Of a stretch of 64,000 nt of DNA, positions 11,163 through 59,367 are shown in pieces. A program made the translations under genes and the position numbers. Source of the DNA: Umbilicaria muhlenbergii (taxonomy: Eukaryota; Ascomycota; Lecanoromycetes; Umbilicariales; Umbilicariaceae); contig KK106987.1 of assembly GCA_000611775.1 (NCBI GenBank), positions 620,001 through 684,000 of the forward strand, in the 5' to 3' direction. The first letter of the stretch is position 1, and every line of letters begins with the position of its first letter. The notes beneath the pieces were generated by a model. The model made no database searches, had not been told where the DNA came from, and worked only from the letters and a program-made list of their open reading frames with translations.

Positions 11163-14100
11163 ATGTCAAAACGCGGCGCAGAGTCGCAAGGAAGTCGAGA
11201 AGGATGGTTTGAAGGAGATGGTACAAATCCAGGAGTGAAAATGAGTTCTACACCTCAAAAGGCTACCGCTGCACAGTTGGCAAGCAGGAAGTGAGTGCAA
11301 TCTTATTGTTGTGGCTTTTTTCGCATTATCAACACAATGAGCGCTAGTCTATTGATGTTATCAAATTTCACCAAACCTCACCTCCAAACCTCACTTCCAT
11401 ACCTCACATCAACACCTTTTCTGAACAAAACTTCCCATTTCTGATCCTTCTGCACACTACACTTTCTGCTCTGATGAGCCACAGCCCGTACGCAAGATAC
11501 GCACTCAAGCAGAGTACTTACTTGAGGTACATGGGTAGGATTATCCACGGGCGCGCCGGACGCCGTACGAATCCGGCACGTCCAGCAACCTTCCAAGCTT
11601 CACAACCGACTCAGCAACCTCTTCAGTCGCCATTCGGCAGCGTTGACCCCAACACCGTGAACGGTAACGCGACCATGCCTTTGCCATCGAGCGGGTTCAA
11701 TTTCGGACAGCCGAACGGCGGATCATCACAAACGTTCCCACAGAACAACACCAGCAACATGCCAGCAAATTCGCCAAACACATCCTTTGGCGGGTTTGGT
11801 AGTCGTAGTGCTACGAATACCGGTTTCAATCCACAAGTTCCTGCTCCCACATCCAACTTCAACTTTTCTGTGGGCGGCGGGGTGACGCAGAACAATCCCT
11901 TCACCGAGGCTAGCAGTACTCCTTCTACTACGTCAACTCCTGGCGGTTATCAGGGTACCATCTTCAATTTACCTGCTTCGAACTCGGGTTTTGCGCCCCC
12001 GAACACTCTGTTCCGAGAGCACGAAGACACAGAAGACCATCTATTCGCATCTCACGCGCCGTTCCTCGAACAGAATAACCAGAGCAACCAGAACAACCAG
12101 CTCGCATTCCCGCAGCCAACGAGCAGTGTCTTGAATCAGGCGCCCAATCAACAACAGCAGACGCCCGCACTATCCAACGCTTTTGGACAGTCAAACTCGC
12201 AGCCTTTTGGCAACATATTTGGACCGTCGACCGGTCAGCAACAAGAGAAGCAACCAACGTCAAACTTATTCGGCCAGTTAAGGTCTCAGCCAACCCAAGC
12301 CGCAAGCAACGGTTTCGGTTCCCAGGCAAGCCAGCCGCAACAAGCGCAGCCTACTTCCAATATTTTTGGACAATTCAGCTCGCAGTCCAACCAGCCAAAG
12401 ATCAACTTCTTTGGTCAGAACACTACTGTAGAACCTCAGAGTCAGCCGGACAATAGTACGTCAATTCAGTTTGGCGATAGCATGCAGACTTCTCCCGACA
12501 ATTCCCCACAGAAGATCGAACAGTCGAAGCAAGGTGTTTTCTCATTCTTGAATTCCCAACCCCAAAACCATTCCGATAAGACCACTATTATGCCAGGTCA
12601 CGGAGGCAGTCTCTTTGATCGCATTACTCGACCATCTTCTACACCAGCAGCTTCGACTGAAAGTGCACAAGGTGGTATCTCGACCACCGACGGGCACTCC
12701 AGTACTTCTCCATCTAAGCCAACGGAAAATGTGACAGAGGAGCCAGGATCGAACACTGACTCGCCTTCCGCGCATTCCAACATCTTTGGCAAAAGCACAG
12801 TCGATGGACCAACAATCTTTAGTTTGTCACAAACGTCAAGCGCATCTTCTACAAAAGAAGCCGAAAACCGTGCGATCGGAAACAGACCGTTCGCCACGCC
12901 AAATCTGGCCAAGCCATCCTCTTCTGATGCGAATGTGGCCAAGAGCAATGCTTTTGCGAGTCTGAAAGTACCATCGGTCCCGCAGCCCACACCATCTTCC
13001 CCTAAACCTACGACACCTGCAACGATGTCATCAACGGTTCCTAAAAACCCTGGCGATTCTGGTTTCAAGATCAAAGGCATTAGTGCAACTTCTACTTTAC
13101 CCGCCTCAACCCAGAAACGTGAGACGATCATTAAATCATCTCCAATCCCTACCTTTCGCAATATGGGCACGCCACCTACAGTTCCTGCGCACTTTACCGA
13201 GGCTCAGAAGCAAGAAATGGTCACCGGGTATCGGTTGCGTTCGCTCGATATGGGTCTGAAGAAGTACATGTTGGGGTCAGGTTTCTTTAGTGAACCATTG
13301 TTGATCACCCGTTTCTATGAAGAGAAGAAAGAGGAGATACTGGCTGCACAAGGCTTGCCGAAAGAAGGACTTGCTGGTAGCAAGAGAAAGTCCGCAGACG
13401 ACAACACAGACCTCGACGGCAAGGGACCGAACAAGAAGTCAAGGTCTGAGACATCTTTCTTTGGATCACCTAGCAAGGACACACCTCAGATGCCACTGGT
13501 TCCTATGACAGCGACAAATGGGCCTACTTCCAACGCGCCTTTATTTGGCCAGCCTGCCCCAGATAACTCAGTGCGTACGAGTGCGAAGAGAGCAGCCGAG
13601 GAGGACCTTGTCAAAGACAACGCGAATGATACAAATGGTACCGGCAAGAAACCTCGTTGCGATGACGACGTATCATATCCATCATTGCCATCTACTTCGC
13701 AATCTCTCCAAGGTTCTGAGACCTCGAACATCTTCAAGAGCATTCTGAGTAAGCCGGACGATGAATCCTTAGGAAGCACGTCAGCACCAAGTGTGAACGG
13801 CACTGCGCATAAAGGATCATCCGCACCAAAGCTCTCTGCTGAGTCCTCGAAGAGCTCGGCGACTGCTATTGTAAATAACCTCGTCTCGAACAATCCATCC
13901 TCACACTCGGCGTCTTCAAGTGCAGTCCAAATGACGACTGTGACTCCATTTAGCAGATCGGGAACTGCATCTCCATACCAGTCTCAGTCTAAGCCGACAT
14001 TGTTTCCTTTTGACGCTACTGACAAATCTACTACGTTTTCATCTCCGTTTCAGTTTAAATCGAGTTCTACTCAGGCTTTCGCGGAACCCGCTCCTGCCAA

Positions 14101-15931
14101 TCCCTTCACAGTCAAGCCCGTCACGCCTACGGCAGCGCCATCCGACACGGTCAAAGCTCCGTCTCTTCAGCTGCCAACGTTCGGTACCGGCGCGTCAGTG
14201 GATTTCTTGGCTCAGTCCGGCAAGGCAGCGGAAGAGACTGCTAAGAGGGAGAAAGAGAAGCGTAAAGCTGCAGATTTCGATTCGGACGAAGATGATGAGG
14301 CTGAATGGGAACGCAAAGACGCCGAAGAGCAGCGGGCCAAGAAGCAGAAGATCATCGAAGCTGCGAAGGGCAAGGCTGCAAAACTCGTTCCTGGGAGCGG
14401 CTTTGTGTTCGTTAAGGAAAACGATAGTCCACAAAGCACAAACCCTACGGAGTCCGCTTCGCCTAGCTTTCAAATCGATGCGCCCAAGCCTACACCTAGC
14501 GCAGCCGGTGGTATGTCTAGCTTTGGCACTCTTACATCATCCACAGGCTCGGATACCTCGATGTTTTCCAATGTCAAGGCGTTTGGAGCACAGAATGCAA
14601 TGAGCAAGAACATTATATTTGGCCACTTGTCCGACGCTGAATCTGGCGCTGAACGTAGCCAGGCTGGCGATGCAGACGATGAAGGTACTGATACTGGGGC
14701 CGAAAGCGAAGGCGTCAACGCAGAAGGTGCCAATGAAGGTGCTGATGACGAACATCGAAGCATGCAGTCTACGGACTCTGTACGCAACGGCTCCCTGAAA
14801 GGACCCAAGAATTCAGGTGGGAACAACGTTCCTAAATGTGGCCCGTCCCCTCATGGTGCCCTTGCTAAAGGATATGCGTGTATAGACAAGCTATTGCAAT
14901 CGCCCACGCTCAAGGGTGACTCGCTCGAACGTGTCGCTAGCGACAAGAAAGAAACAAAGAAGAGTCCTTTTAAGCTGTCATCGGCAATCGTCCCAGGCGA
15001 CTTTACACCTCAATCGAGCCCTAGCCGTGTGAGTACTAGCAACTCCTTTAACCTGGCCAACAGTAGCACTGCAGGCAGTGTCTTTGGTCAATCATCTTCA
15101 AAGGCTGTTGTGACTAGTCCCTTCGGCGTCTCTGGAAGCCAGGTGGGCGATCACACATGGAAGCAAGATAGCCCGATCAAATTCGGCGGTGCAGAGAGAA
15201 CACCAGGCTTGAGTGTAACTCCAGCAACACCGACGAAGCCAGCTTCTGCGGAGCAGAAGGGCAGTCCTTCTAGTGGTTTCGGTGGCTTGTTTGGTGCTGC
15301 CAAGCCAGCCACACATGATGCTTCAAGCAAGCCGGCAACGAATTACTTTGGAGTTGGCGCGTCTGCAACCAAATCGCCTGACGCCGGTTTTGGCTTCGCT
15401 TTCGGTGGGCCGCCTAAGTCTACGGCTAACATTCTGGCGCCTCCATCTGGGTTGACCTCCAACGCGACATCTCGCGCCACCTCACCTGGTATTACGACTG
15501 GCGGCGAGAGTGCGAACGACTCAACAGCCGAAGGAGCTGAGGGCGAGACACAGCATCACGAACAGATCAACCTCGCGGCTGGTGGACCCGGTGAAGAAAA
15601 TGAGGATGTCCTCTTCGAGGTCAGAGCAAAAGCGTTGGTGTACGACAGCGAGAAGAAGGAATGGCCTATTCAGGGACTTGGACCACTTCGCGTATTAAAA
15701 GATCGCAAGACTGGAAAGACGAGGATCCTCTTAAGGCAAGATCCTAGTGGAAGGATAGTCCTCAACGCAGCCTTGATGAGTGCAATGAGCTACGATTACT
15801 CTAAGCCCAAAGGGGTCAAAATGGGGGTTGCGACAGATGATGGGAAGCTCAGCACCTGGATGATCAAGGTTGGAAAGGACGATGATGCGACTAGGCTGTC
15901 AAGTGTGCTCGAGGATAACAAATCCAACTGA
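11163..15931 (+). CDS. NUP2: NUP2-type FG nucleoporin with C-terminal Ran-binding domain
   Basis: This is a mobile nuclear-basket nucleoporin that binds karyopherin and Ran-GTP. Two exons (11163-11290 and 11539-15931, intron 248 nt) code for 1,506 residues. Exon 1 begins MSKRGAESQGSREGWFEGDG and ends with ASRK, joined to IIHGRAGRR. This matches the short basic N-terminal motif of fungal Nup2, so I prefer this start to the in-frame ATGs after the acceptor. The body is low-complexity Asn/Gln/Ser/Pro with dispersed FG, NIFGQ and SNLFGQ repeats. A conserved short helical block (EAQKQEMVTGYRLRSLDMGL) sits near the middle and a Lys/Glu-rich coiled segment near residue 900. The last 110 residues form the RanBD: EDVLFEVRAKALVYDSEKKE, GLGPLRVLKDRKTGKTRILL, then the closing SYDYSKPKGVKMGV block. 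Confidence 0.92.
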
Positions 15932-16391
15932 TGACCTCGGTCCGCCTATGGCTTGGGAGGGGAGCTAGAGAGCATCTTCCTGCAGGTTGATTGTGATGTT
16001 ATGTTAATTTTACACGTGCGTATTTGGGTACCGTGGTTCGAGGGGTTGTTGCAGAAAGTCTTTCGTGGTTCGATGTCTATGTTACACTTGTCTACTCTGT
16101 GCCACATCCGCCCCAGACGTTTCACACGGGCTTATTGAGCCGTCTCCTTTAAAGGTGTTCGCGCAATCAGTGGTTTTATTTTCCTCCGCCTGTAAAGAGC
16201 GTGGTTCGAAGGCATTCGGAAGGGGTACAGAGCATTGTGAGACTGTTTGCCGTCTCAAGGCGCATTTTGTCGCTTTAGCGATGCATTAAAGATTTCGAGA
16301 TTATTTTCAAGCGCGCTATGTTCATTTCTGAGCCTTTCCTCGTCATGTTGCGATTCTTTTGCGCGGCGCTCTATTGACACCTTCTCCTATT

Positions 16392-16433
16392 TGGTTCGGG
16401 GCTGGACACTCTTCGGAGTGACCTACCGAACCA
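16392..16433 (+). ncRNA. Hairpin copy 1
   Basis: The outer stem GGTTCGG (16393-16399) pairs with CCGAACC (16426-16432), plus a T-A pair outside. The inner stem CACTC pairs with GAGTG around TTCG at 16412-16415. The internal loop strands are GGCTGGA and ACCTA. Confidence 0.7.
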
Positions 16434-16486
16434 TGTAGTTTTGAGACCGTGATCAAGATGACGAGACTGCTCGTATACAAATCGAC

Positions 16487-16570
16487 CTCCTCGGCCGTGC
16501 CTTTCATTCCACTTTGGGGCTGGATTATGTCTTCGGACATTGACCTACCGAAGTGGGTGAGGCCGAGGAG
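16487..16570 (+). ncRNA. Hairpin copy 2 with an extra closing stem
   Basis: The core stem CCACTTTGG (16509-16517) pairs with CCGAAGTGG (16548-16556). The inner stem ATGTC/GACAT closes TTCG at 16532-16535. A further perfect 10-bp stem, CTCCTCGGCC (16487-16496) with GGCCGAGGAG (16561-16570), encloses the whole. Confidence 0.72.
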
Positions 16571-16597
16571 CTGACTGCGAGGGTCATCAAGTACCGT

Positions 16598-16689
16598 AGC
16601 TGGCTGTTCTCATTACTTCTTTTTCACTCACTCTGGGGCTGGACTGAGTCTTCGGACTCTGACCTACTGGAGTGGGTAGGGAGCTAGCT
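16598..16689 (+). ncRNA. Hairpin copy 3 with an extra closing stem
   Basis: The core stem ACTCACTCTGG (about 16626-16636) pairs with CTGGAGTGGGT (16667-16677), including G-U pairs. The inner stem GAGTC/GACTC closes TTCG at 16651-16654. An outer 8-bp stem, AGCTGGCT (16598-16605) with AGCTAGCT (16682-16689), has one G-U pair. Confidence 0.68.
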
Positions 16690-17217
16690 TGGGATATTGG
16701 CTACTTGTACTTTTGGCTCGCGCATGTTGCAATGTTTCCGTTTTCCTGTAGCTAGGCTCGCTGTTTTACCTGTTCGTACATAGAGATCGCGTCATCAATG
16801 CGAAGTTCATAAAACCCCAGGGACCATGACGTGAAAATTGCCAGTACTGTCTAACATCGCAGTCAGTTCCTAAGATAGCATAAATACGCGCCGCTGAAGA
16901 GACTTGGCGGAAACGGTGGTTCGACCACTAGAGAGTGTGGTGCCTTCTATGCTTGTTACGGTTTCCTCAGAGTAGACCCATTAACTATACAGTGGGAACT
17001 CGGGGCTACGTACAGTACGAGGCTGCAACTTATGGCTGGTTTCAATCATCAGAATCACGCTGAGTGGAGACAATTCCATCGGAGTATGAAGATTGTCTGT
17101 GGGCGTGGTATAATCATTTTAGCATGCATCGCTCTGGTTGAGACCAGTCCAAGTTCGAAAGTTCTCTTTGAGAGCTCCTTTGGGGAACATCTCAGCGGTA
17201 GGAAGTTCATTCTGCAA

Positions 17218-18165
17218 TCATTCTTCGTACTTAACATGGCCTTTGCTAATGTCAGGGTACACATCGAACCTCCTCTGCGTATAGAGAGGAATACCCTTCC
17301 TCGTCTCCTCAATAGCCTCCCCTTTCAGTTCCGCGTAAACAATCTCTTCGCCCTCACCTGCTTCTGTCAAAATATGCGCGTTGGGATCGACGACCATGCT
17401 ATGTCCCCACGCGTGATAGCTGGCCTCCATGTCCCGTGCTGGACTGCATAAGCCAACGTATACCTGATTGTCCATCGCTCGGGCTCGGGCCTGTAATGAC
17501 CAGTGCAGGGCGCCAGTGGTGAGGTTAAAGGCGCCGGGATAGAGCAAGAGGAAGCAGCCCTGGCGGGCGGCGATTGTGGCAAGTTCTGGGAAGCGTATAT
17601 CATAGCAGATGGCGATGGCTATTTTGCCATAGGGGGGAAGATCGACGAGCGTGACTTTGTTGCCCGGTGATAGCACGTCCGACTCTCGAAATGTGATTTT
17701 TCCGGGAATATCAATGTCGAAAAGGTGCACTTTCCGATGTGTTGCGAGCAGTTTTCCGTCTGGCGCAAAAAGGAGAGACGTATTGTGGTATTTATCTGTT
17801 GATTCTACATATTCGGGAATGCTACCGCCCAGGAGATATGTCTTTGATTCGGCGGCAAGAGCCGAGAGCGCGTGGTAGGTTGGCGATTGATCTTTCGTTG
17901 GTGGAGATGGCAGGAGAGTCTCGGCGTATTTGGGAAAGTATTGGCAGCCGTACGGAGAATTGAAGCATTCAGGTAGAACGACAAGGGAGGCGCCCGCGTG
18001 GGAGGCTTCGAGAACTTTTGAGCGGGCCCGAGAAAGGTTGGCGGTTTTATCAGCGCCTGTTGAGGGTGTCAGCTACGATGGTGGTGCGGGATTCGGATGG
18101 GGTAGTTTACCTGTGGCAAGCTGCACTAGGGCAAGCTTCAATGGCTTCTTCAGGAGGCCCGCCAT
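17218..18165 (-). CDS. Nit2-type omega-amidase (nitrilase superfamily)
   Basis: This is a carbon-nitrogen hydrolase that probably deaminates alpha-ketoglutaramate and alpha-ketosuccinamate. Two exons (18165-18111 and 18056-17218, intron 54 nt) code for 297 residues. The start MAGLLKKPLKLALVQLATG is the usual first strand of the fold. The catalytic triad is visible: Glu48 in VLPECFNSPYG, Lys127 in HRKVHLFDIDIPG and Cys169 in AICYDIRFPE. The signature NSPYG and the tail RRFDVYPDISKG are typical of the Nit2/yeast Nit3 subgroup rather than Nit1 or plant nitrilases. Length is close to the family's roughly 280-300 residues. There is no targeting signal, so a cytosolic enzyme is likely. Its upstream flank faces the start of the large MFS gene. 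Confidence 0.94.
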
Positions 18166-38661: not shown

Positions 38662-39525
38662 ATGCCTTCAATCAAGAACATCGCTCTCGCTTGTGCGTTC
38701 GCCACCCTTGCCGCTGCCCAGGTCTCACAGTCCGCCGATGGTCAAATTATCAAACCAACGTCGGCCTCCACCGTTGCAGCGGTGTCTCAGTCGAAAGACG
38801 GCCAGATTGTAGCACCCACTTCTACTTCCACCGTCGCGGCCGTCTCTCAATCGAAAGACGGCCAGATTGTGGCACCTACTTCCACCGTCGCGGCCGTCTC
38901 TCAATCGAAAGACGGCCAGATTGTGGCACCTACTTCCACCGTCGCGGCCGTCTCTCAATCGAAAGACGGCCAGATTGTGGCACCTACTTCCACCGTCGCG
39001 GCCGTCTCTCAATCGAAAGACGGCCAGATTGTGGCACCTACTTCCACCGTCGCGGCCGTCTCTCAATCGAAAGACGGCCAGATTGTGGCACCTACTTCCA
39101 CCGTCGCGGCCGTCTCTCAATCGAAAGACGGCCAGATTGTGGCACCTACTTCCACCGTCGCGGCCGTCTCTCAATCGAAAGACGGCCAGATTGTGGCACC
39201 TACTTCCACCGTCGCGGCCGTCTCTCAATCGAAAGACGGCCAGATTGTGGCACCTACTTCCACCGTCGCGGCCGTCTCTCAATCGAAAGACGGCCAGATT
39301 GTGGCAGCCACTTCCACCATTGCGGCCGTATCTCAGTCTAAGGATGGTCAGATTGTCAAGGGGACCACATTGGCCAGCGTCACCGTCGCCCCCACCACGA
39401 ACGGCACCTTCTCCACACCAAGCAAGACGCAAGGCGCAACATTCACCGGAGCTGCAAACATCATGGGATGGAGTAACGAGCTTATTGCCGCCGTTGGTAT
39501 CGCCGCTGGTGTTGCCATGCTCTAA
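38662..39525 (+). CDS. Cell-wall protein with PIR-type repeats and GPI-like tail
   Basis: A single exon codes for 287 residues. The ATG at 38662 gives a signal peptide ([20 protein letters not shown]). The in-frame sequence before it (from 38524) has no signal peptide character and is probably leader. The mature part is one SQSADGQII followed by 11 copies of SQSKDGQIV in an 18-residue unit [18 protein letters not shown]. The core Q-x-x-DGQ[IV] is that of yeast PIR proteins (Hsp150/Pir family, SQIGDGQIQ), whose Gln forms an alkali-labile ester with beta-1,3-glucan. The C-terminus (GAANIMGW, then [14 protein letters not shown]) looks like a GPI attachment signal, while the yeast PIR C-terminal four-Cys domain is missing. 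So it may be bound to the wall in two ways. Confidence 0.88.
38784..39355 (+). repeat. 54-bp tandem repeats, about eight almost identical copies
   Basis: The period is 54 bp (18 codons). The GTGGCACCTACT element recurs at 38870, 38924, 38978 and so on every 54 bp through 39248, with no base difference seen between inner copies. Outer copies have diverged. Such identity at synonymous sites points to recent expansion or gene conversion. Confidence 0.93.
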
Positions 39526-45791: not shown

Positions 45792-47152
45792 CCTCAACTT
45801 CGACTGAGCAGACAATCGGGTGAAAGAGTCGAGAGCAATTGATTCAACGATGCCGGTCGTGAATTTGATGCTATCTCCTCTTTTGGCCGATGCCCGCGCA
45901 GTGAGGAATTATTTTGCGAGCTGACCATGTTATATAGCCATACACCTGTATAGGCGAACATTGTTCGAGGATCAATGACGTCTTTGTCATACGTGTTTGT
46001 TGGTCGACAACGGCATTGTTTGTTGGTCGACAACGGCATTGTTTGTTGGTCGACAACGGCATTGTTATTGGGGAAGCCTTTGTCCAGGGGCAGGGACTCG
46101 CGGCTTTTCAAAGAGAAATCGACAATAACTAAACATCCAATAAAGTATGCCGACGTAAGCAGGCAATGGAGCCTCAAAGGCAAGCAACAAGAAGGGCATA
46201 AAGAATGCTAGAGCAGGCAGCGGACGATGCTCCCGTTGTAAGGTCTGTGGCCCTATTTCCACAACTAGGTACCGAGCCACGGGTTCTCATTCATGGAAGT
46301 CGCCTCTTAAGCCTTGTATTCAACGCGATTCTGACCAAGAACCTACTTTGATCGGGGCGATCCGCCCGAACTGCTGGGCTAACATGTAGGGAAGAATTGG
46401 AGGTAGTAGTATGTGAAGATACTTTGGGCGATGGGTGGATAGGGCAGGGTTGATGCTGCGAGCATATTAGACTGGTATTCAAGGGTGTGTGTGAAGCCTG
46501 AACTGCCGCATAAACAGGTGATTTGTATTGGCTCGCAGTGAGAGCTTGGAGACCAATCAAGTAAGCAGTATATGTGGCAGTGAGCACCGGAGAAAGGGTT
46601 GGAGGAAAACGGATGTTGAGTCAGGGATGAAGGAGATACAGGAGTACGATAAGAGGTACCTGACTGCAATCGCAATGTCTGTATTCCGTAGTAATCGACA
46701 GTTCCAAAACATTGTGGCCCGCTACGACAAGCACCTCGACGTTTTGAGAAGAATATGGTTGTAAGGTATCCTTGCACTCCACACTGTACTTTGTAGGGGG
46801 AGCGCCTAAACTCTTTTTGGTGACGCGCCGCTTTCATCCCCATCGATCAAGAAGCCCTCGAAATTTTTGTTCGTCCGTCTTTCTCCAGTACATCTTTAGG
46901 CCGACCATCAGTCTCGAATTTGCTTTGTCCATTCCCATCTCTCTCGTTTACGTCTTGACGGCACTCTGTGTCGATTACACTCGCTAGAGTGACCGGGTAC
47001 TCTCTTATCAAACGACTCGGCGGTATCCACCACTAAGAAGACAGCATAACAGCTACGCATCCGGTAAAAAGCGGTTGCCACGGAACGGGTTTATGGTCTG
47101 CTGGGTTCTTGACCGGAGTACAAAGGTGCTATAGACGGGCTTGAGATTGGAA
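45792..47152. other. Intergenic region with a short tandem repeat
   Basis: This 1.36-kb region separates the orphan gene (minus) from the TM9 gene (plus). It contains three 23-bp repeats (45996-46064). A 150-codon minus frame at 46379-46843 is Cys/Ser-rich without family features and lies in what should be promoter DNA, so I do not call it. Confidence 0.5.
45996..46064. repeat. Three perfect 23-bp tandem repeats with a central palindrome
   Basis: The unit is TTTGTTGGTCGACAACGGCA followed by TTG, present three times head to tail without a mismatch. Each unit contains GTTGGTCGACAAC, nearly palindromic around GTCGAC. They lie about 205 bp before the orphan gene start at 45791 and about 1.1 kb before the TM9 gene. 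Confidence 0.92.
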
Positions 47153-54865: not shown

Positions 54866-54888
54866 GAGGGTGACGAGGGGAGGGAGGT

Positions 54889-54925
<37 letters not shown>

Positions 54926-59312: not shown

Positions 59313-59367
59313 GCTGAACGCTGAACGCTGGACGCTGGACGCTGGACGCTGGGCGCTGGACGCTGGG
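59313..59367. repeat. 7-bp minisatellite (GGACGCT type)
   Basis: About seven units alternate GAACGCT, GGACGCT and GGGCGCT, following a GATGCTGCT-type start. Variation among units suggests slippage plus point change. Confidence 0.85.

Follow-up and report, generated by a model that had tools for sequence, protein, structure and literature searches.

Three tandem UUCG-capped hairpins with a constant internal loop downstream of a NUP2-like gene in Umbilicaria muhlenbergii: a candidate structured RNA

The long non-coding RNAs (lncRNAs) roX1 and roX2 of Drosophila carry repeated stem-loops, the roXboxes, with a short constant motif that is often their sole recognisable feature, and the number of these stem-loops is related to function, as reported (PMC4719309). 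Structured RNAs of filamentous fungi are still emerging; a screen that yielded 17 RNAs described conserved Pezizomycotina structures in 3' untranslated regions (3' UTRs) and intergenic regions, some of them with strongly conserved interior loops and, going by its main text, predominantly single copy per genome (PMC8216456). Here we describe a tandem array of three hairpins in a 64,000-nucleotide stretch of the Umbilicaria muhlenbergii genome (assembly GCA_000611775.1, contig KK106987.1, positions 620,001 to 684,000), which is referred to as the window and in which all coordinates are counted. The array lies in a gap of 1,286 bp (15932-17217) between the stop codons of two convergent genes, 460-744 nt 3' of the stop codon of a gene for a NUP2-like protein and on the same strand (Table 1), and its three hairpins present an identical internal loop between stems that differ in sequence. 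Like the roX RNAs, the array thus has several stem-loops, here three, with a common constant motif, a likeness that concerns the manner of working only and not descent. The two differ in sequence, kingdom and proteins, and the array, whose transcription is putative, has no known chromatin or dosage role; by analogy, the roX RNAs would be the nearest precedent that we found in manner of working.

With respect to fungal RNAs, the genes to which the 17-RNA screen ties its structures (thioredoxin, RING finger, thioesterase, GLY1, MET13 and others) include no nucleoporin in the main text, from which the words nup, nucleoporin and tandem were absent in a term search (PMC8216456). The same words were absent, by the same kind of search, from the main text of a second screen, of 15 motifs (PMC5640933). 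Going by the main text, the array could conceivably be identical with one of the four intergenic structures of the former screen (structures 1-4), although three of these four have an H box and the array has no suitably placed H box (PMC8216456). The rps0 motif differs as well, as far as the text of the latter screen describes it, in that it has the conserved element GGGGAAAG, is tied to RPS0 and consists of two hairpins, one of them carrying GGGGAAAG, versus the three copies here (PMC5640933).

All copies of the array follow one order, namely outer stem, GGCTGGA, inner stem, TTCG closed by a C-G pair, inner stem, ACCTA and outer stem, and their cores start at 16400, 16518 and 16637, in steps of 118 and 119 bases. 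The sequence-only reading that drew attention to this locus had described three copies of one design, and these are indeed present at that place, with the sequences and the outer stems that it gave. The pattern GGCTGGA-N(4-10)-TTCG-N(4-10)-ACCTA has three matches in the 64 kb, all in the array, and none in any of 100 dinucleotide shuffles. Each hairpin contains one copy of the 9-mer GGGGCTGGA, which is found nowhere else on the plus strand of the window and not at all on the minus strand. Core and tetraloop are identical across the three copies at 16 of 16 positions. Folding in a 321-nt context predicted that the GG of GGCTGGA pairs with the CC of ACCTA with a probability of 0.96-0.99, and because of this predicted pairing the nominal 7/5 loop is probably a 4-by-2 loop (GGCU/UA) together with two G-C pairs and an A.A mismatch. 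After this mismatch, the inner stem of copy 1 begins immediately, and the 5-bp inner stems of copies 2 and 3 begin after a further Y-G position and a U.U mismatch.

The stems, on the other hand, have changed in a concerted manner. In a hand alignment of nine outer and five inner pairs in three copies (14 pairs, 42 cells), standard pairs occupy 41 of the 42 stem cells, four of the 41 being wobble pairs, and the sole miss is the T.T at the base of copy 1. Changes on both sides are found in seven of the 14 pairs, and copies 1 and 2, the most divergent pair, differ at 15 of 28 arm positions. When the 3' letters were dealt among the copies in 100,000 shuffles, 0.036% of them reached the cell count and 0.066% the double-change count, and when the observed 3' differences were placed at random in 200,000 trials, all 14 pairs were kept in none (copy 1 to 2), 0.05% (2 to 3) and 0.0015% (1 to 3); these are not clean probabilities, since the copies are related by descent and also served to choose the structure, but the effect is large. 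Furthermore, in an alignment by MAFFT, 96.3% of 54 cells were paired versus a shuffled mean of 87.4%, and none of 500 shuffles reached the observed value. With the partners slid by 1-3 columns, pairing was 36-48% and the double-change pairs numbered 0-3, versus 6 observed. The count of further pair types (11) was less striking, as 35 of the 500 shuffles matched it; the other four measures were matched by none. The paired cells, the double changes and the slid-partner control together support the earlier suggestion of selection on structure with a constant loop.

No comparable likeness extends beyond the hairpins: the alignment of spacer 1 with spacer 2 was not above shuffles (z -0.19), and five other comparisons of spacers and flanks gave no similarity beyond shuffles (z -0.86 to 1.78). 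Since spacers and flanks are without detectable similarity, the hairpin seems to be the part that was retained. The near-equal spacing suggests an old tandem duplication, after which the spacers would have drifted and the hairpins would have been kept.

As for the strand, the isolated hairpins 1, 2 and 3 were predicted to fold with -22.0, -19.4 and -19.2 kcal/mol on the plus strand and with -21.8, -15.6 and -14.9 kcal/mol on the minus strand, so that the difference is clear for copies 2 and 3 and copy 1 is nearly equal on both. Only on the plus strand do the wobble pairs qualify as standard and does the loop read UUCG. Wobble pairs, UUCG cap and predicted energies favour a plus-strand RNA, in agreement with the polarity that had been read from the tetraloop, copy 1 being nearly neutral in energy.

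The sequence-only reading had also given copies 2 and 3 extra closing stems of 10 and 8 bp. The stem of copy 2 stands, with a run of its length in 0.8% of 500 shuffles; that of copy 3, a perfect 8-bp run in the flanks, is at chance level, being reached in 45% of 500 shuffles. The longest run in the flanks of copy 1 is 5 bp (reached in 99% of 500 shuffles), and the best predicted structures for copies 1 and 3, folded together with the flanks, include putative interrupted closing stems. An inverted repeat of 15 nt (16566-16580 / 16857-16871; 93% complementary, 276 nt apart) overlaps the 3' closing arm of copy 2.

We searched for further copies with covariance models. A model built from copies 2 and 3 recovered the held-out copy 1 at 38.7 bits (E 3e-7), with the next match in the 64 kb at 10.7 bits, and neither of two models, run with filters off, found a fourth copy in the window, the next match of the three-copy model having 10.6 bits (E 2.3). 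This three-copy model, a check that had been proposed along with the array, was run on the window and on loci picked by pattern; it scored the copies that built it at 64.7-83.9 bits and gave no credible further copy. The pattern-picked loci came from viral and prokaryotic collections, in which absence is uninformative about fungi. The core DNA patterns matched six stretches in viral contigs and two in prokaryote genomes, which represent five distinct sequences, and none of the eight folds as a UUCG-capped hairpin of this design, with L003 and L007 pairing partly. A looser core pattern matched 46 more viral stretches. The best of the 54 loci, L046 (24.3 bits, E 0.0064; three-copy model, default filters), has a partly broken outer stem and no UUCG loop, and we read it as a chance match because the 54 loci had been picked for core letters; all of them were rejected as relatives. 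Queries with the carbon-nitrogen (CN) hydrolase and with the NUP2 C-terminus found no relative in viral contigs.

Rfam 15 gave no match in the window at the gathering score. At relaxed thresholds over the region, the best match was to mir-128 (16.7 bits, gathering score 49), which is not credible; it covers 16545-16625, mostly between copies 2 and 3. The open-access literature, outside which most subscription-journal papers lie, contained no report of this element, and, of 26 open-access papers with both core strings, the 20 listed were judged unrelated from titles and the starts of abstracts. The array had been put forward as a candidate new structured RNA, a claim that gains support from the absence of an Rfam 15 match and from the lack of the three search words in the main text of both fungal screens.

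Several known types of RNA were compared with the hairpins. Telomerase RNA is defined by a template with a CCCTAA-type repeat, and it was rejected, as neither CCCTAA nor TTAGGG occurs on either strand of the gap. A transfer RNA (tRNA) or tRNA-like RNA was rejected likewise, with no tRNA gene found by ARAGORN in the window. A TTTTT run, which would terminate RNA polymerase III, lies at 16620-16624, between copies 2 and 3. The Smaug/Vts1 recognition element consists of CNGG in a hairpin loop; the array core has CUGG, which fits CNGG, but in an internal-loop strand and not in the hairpin loop, which is UUCG in all three copies, and this candidate was rejected too. A kink-turn consists of a C-stem, a 3-nt bulge, tandem sheared G.A/A.G pairs and an NC stem. 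By eye, GG-CUG-GA / GA-CC fits this description, but such a fold would require one more bulged pyrimidine ahead of the inner stem and would compete with the GG/CC pairing.

We give about an even chance to the proposal that the array is a multivalent, three-site protein-binding platform on a plus-strand non-coding RNA (ncRNA). To judge from the sequence, the constant internal loop, the drifting stems and the threefold repeat have the look of a repeated binding site. The RNA, either a separate ncRNA in the gap or a long 3' UTR belonging to the NUP2-like gene, would bear the three tandem recognition hairpins, and each copy would offer the same asymmetric internal loop (5' GGCU + GG + A / 3' A + CC + UA) between stems that are free to drift, with the UUCG cap as a stabiliser that would favour local folding. 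Three equal sites about 119 nt apart may then be bound jointly by one protein species, and the resulting avidity may serve to tether, stabilise or localise the transcript. The transcription, the protein partner, the cooperative binding and any effect on NUP2 are what we infer in this scheme. We slightly prefer a separate ncRNA to a long 3' UTR, given the 460 nt that separate the stop codon from the array and the width of the gap, the typical length of fungal 3' UTRs being the background to this preference. A more specific proposal, which we regard as possible and rather doubtful, is a stand-alone lncRNA gene between NUP2 and the nitrilase-family gene, whose tandem array of a previously undescribed recognition module (GGCU-GG-A / A-CC-UA loop, UUCG-capped) would serve one dedicated protein. 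Such an array may be switchable, because pairing is possible between the GTGGTTCGA repeats (Table 1) and the 3' arm of copy 1, and between 16804-16837 and the 5' side of copy 3.

Several observations weigh against a three-site platform on a plus-strand RNA. The constraint rests on three copies at one locus, and a loop of fixed sequence would suit a small ligand or another RNA just as well. The local folding energy of the array is modest and not exceptional for the window: the folding z-scores of 16380-16700 are almost alike on the two strands (-3.85 on plus versus -3.56 on minus), and the 150-nt windows over the hairpins are all outside the 15 lowest plus-strand z-scores of 1,277 windows. When spans of up to 200 nt are allowed, the best fold of the gap contains all three hairpins, but with spans of 300 or 600 nt, or with the whole gap as one RNA, copy 3 is lost to long-range pairing, its 5' side being drawn into a pairing of 16621-16645 with 16804-16837; in the whole-gap fold, its outer stem has a probability of 0.013 and its GG/CC pairs 0.015. 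In addition, 13 ATG-initiated open reading frames (ORFs) of at least 20 codons touch the gap and three of them overlap the hairpins. The longest of these (65 codons, 65 aa), which is on the minus strand and overlaps with copies 1 and 2, has a hexamer score of 0.212, above the -0.01 of a known gene, and the plus-strand ORF over copy 2 has -0.142, in a score that is without discrimination and unreliable.

The platform reading overlaps with its main rival, which we consider unlikely on balance, namely a cis-acting 3' UTR element of the NUP2-like messenger RNA (mRNA), by which a bound protein would control the stability, localisation or translation of this mRNA, a role that has been suggested for 3' UTR structures of fungi. 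The bound protein is common to both, and in the rival it is the NUP2 mRNA itself that is regulated. The array does lie on the strand of the NUP2-like gene at 460-744 nt after its stop codon, a distance that is nevertheless long for a 3' UTR of a filamentous fungus. Gene-tied 3' UTR structures have been reported from fungi, but in the main text of that report, as noted above, they are predominantly single copy and without mention of nup or nucleoporin (PMC8216456). The constant loop strands might alternatively be antisense to another RNA, which would make the array a guide-like RNA akin to the single-hairpin H/ACA-like RNAs of fungi, a reading that we find quite improbable. According to the same main text, pseudouridylation pockets typically have conserved interior-loop nucleotides, and Pezizomycotina possess H-box RNAs with a single hairpin (PMC8216456). 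Within 30 nt 3' of each hairpin, however, ACA is found in none of the three cases and ANANNA in one, 22 nt past the stem, and an H/ACA or single-hairpin H-box RNA was rejected on this ground; the GG and CC of the loop are also predicted to be paired, and Rfam gave no match to a small nucleolar RNA.

A reading without any RNA function is that the array has its origin at the level of DNA, as a mobile or foldback hairpin element or through template-switch correction of a quasi-palindrome. The presence of three copies inside 300 bp agrees with this, and template switching can perfect inverted repeats, but it seems improbable, given stems that vary in sequence around a constant core and no further copy within the 64 kb, where the best other match has the 10.6 bits noted above; palindrome correction would also not be expected to leave four wobble cells, or a constant loop that is asymmetric. 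Finally, a compact constant loop between variable stems has the look of an aptamer, and the array might be a riboswitch-like, three-copy aptamer for a small molecule. This is hardly to be expected, as an expression platform is not apparent and no plus-strand ATG ORF of at least 150 codons occurs downstream until 18810.

If the array is indeed a multivalent protein-binding platform, it would represent a further module of RNA-protein recognition and would provide a model for multivalent RNA scaffolds that is both compact and genetically tractable. A tandem array provides three internal replicates in one genome, from which structure can be inferred without a species alignment, and the constant loop could be used as bait for the partner protein.

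Table 1. Coordinates of the hairpins and of the features around them
Feature	Position	Strand	Description
Hairpin copy 1	16391..16434	+	outer stem 8 bp plus T.T; core GGCTGGA 16400-16406 / ACCTA 16421-16425; inner stem CACTC/GAGTG; UUCG loop
Hairpin copy 2	16509..16556	+	outer stem 9 bp, one wobble pair; core 16518-16524 / 16543-16547; inner stem ATGTC/GACAT after U.U mismatch; UUCG loop
Hairpin copy 3	16628..16675	+	outer stem 9 bp, three wobble pairs; core 16637-16643 / 16662-16666; inner stem GAGTC/GACTC after U.U mismatch; UUCG loop
Extra closing stem of copy 2	16487..16496 (5' arm) with 16561..16570 (3' arm)	+	10 bp
GTGGTTCGA, four repeats	16033..16041, 16065-16073, 16201-16209, 16916-16924	+	three of four as CGTGGTTCGA
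Upstream gene	11474..15931	+	FG-rich protein, 1485 aa, NUP2-like, with C-terminal RanBP1 domain
Convergent downstream gene	17218..18072	-	carbon-nitrogen hydrolase (nitrilase family), main open frame; Pfam CN_hydrolase 1e-57

The product of the upstream gene, which the sequence-only reading had named NUP2, has visible FG repeats and matches Pfam Ran_BP1 at 7.6e-18 over residues 1373-1484 of 1485. The flanking genes fit a filamentous ascomycete. A scan for bacterial promoters and terminators, which is not meaningful for a fungus, gave nothing beyond shuffles. Besides the four repeats of GTGGTTCGA on the plus strand of the gap, one more occurs in the 64 kb (62133), and 2,000 shuffles of the gap contained 0.01 on average and 1 at the maximum, versus the 4 observed. 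Its two-strand duplexes with the 3' arm of hairpin 1 were predicted at -12.4 to -17.8 kcal/mol, weaker than the hairpin itself; GTGGTTCGA may act as a site for a transcription factor, as a motif in RNA or within a switch.

Elsewhere in the window, a plus-strand ORF of 287 aa at 38662-39525 contains about 11 near-identical 54-bp repeats, and its product presumably resembles a PIR-type cell-wall protein; on both strands, no other part of the window has folding z-scores as strong as those of this repeat DNA. Other repetitive tracts are an interrupted G run of 48 at 54877-54924, a 23-bp unit in 3.2 exact copies at 45994-46066, and tandem GCTGGAC heptamers in 7.7 copies at 59313-59366.
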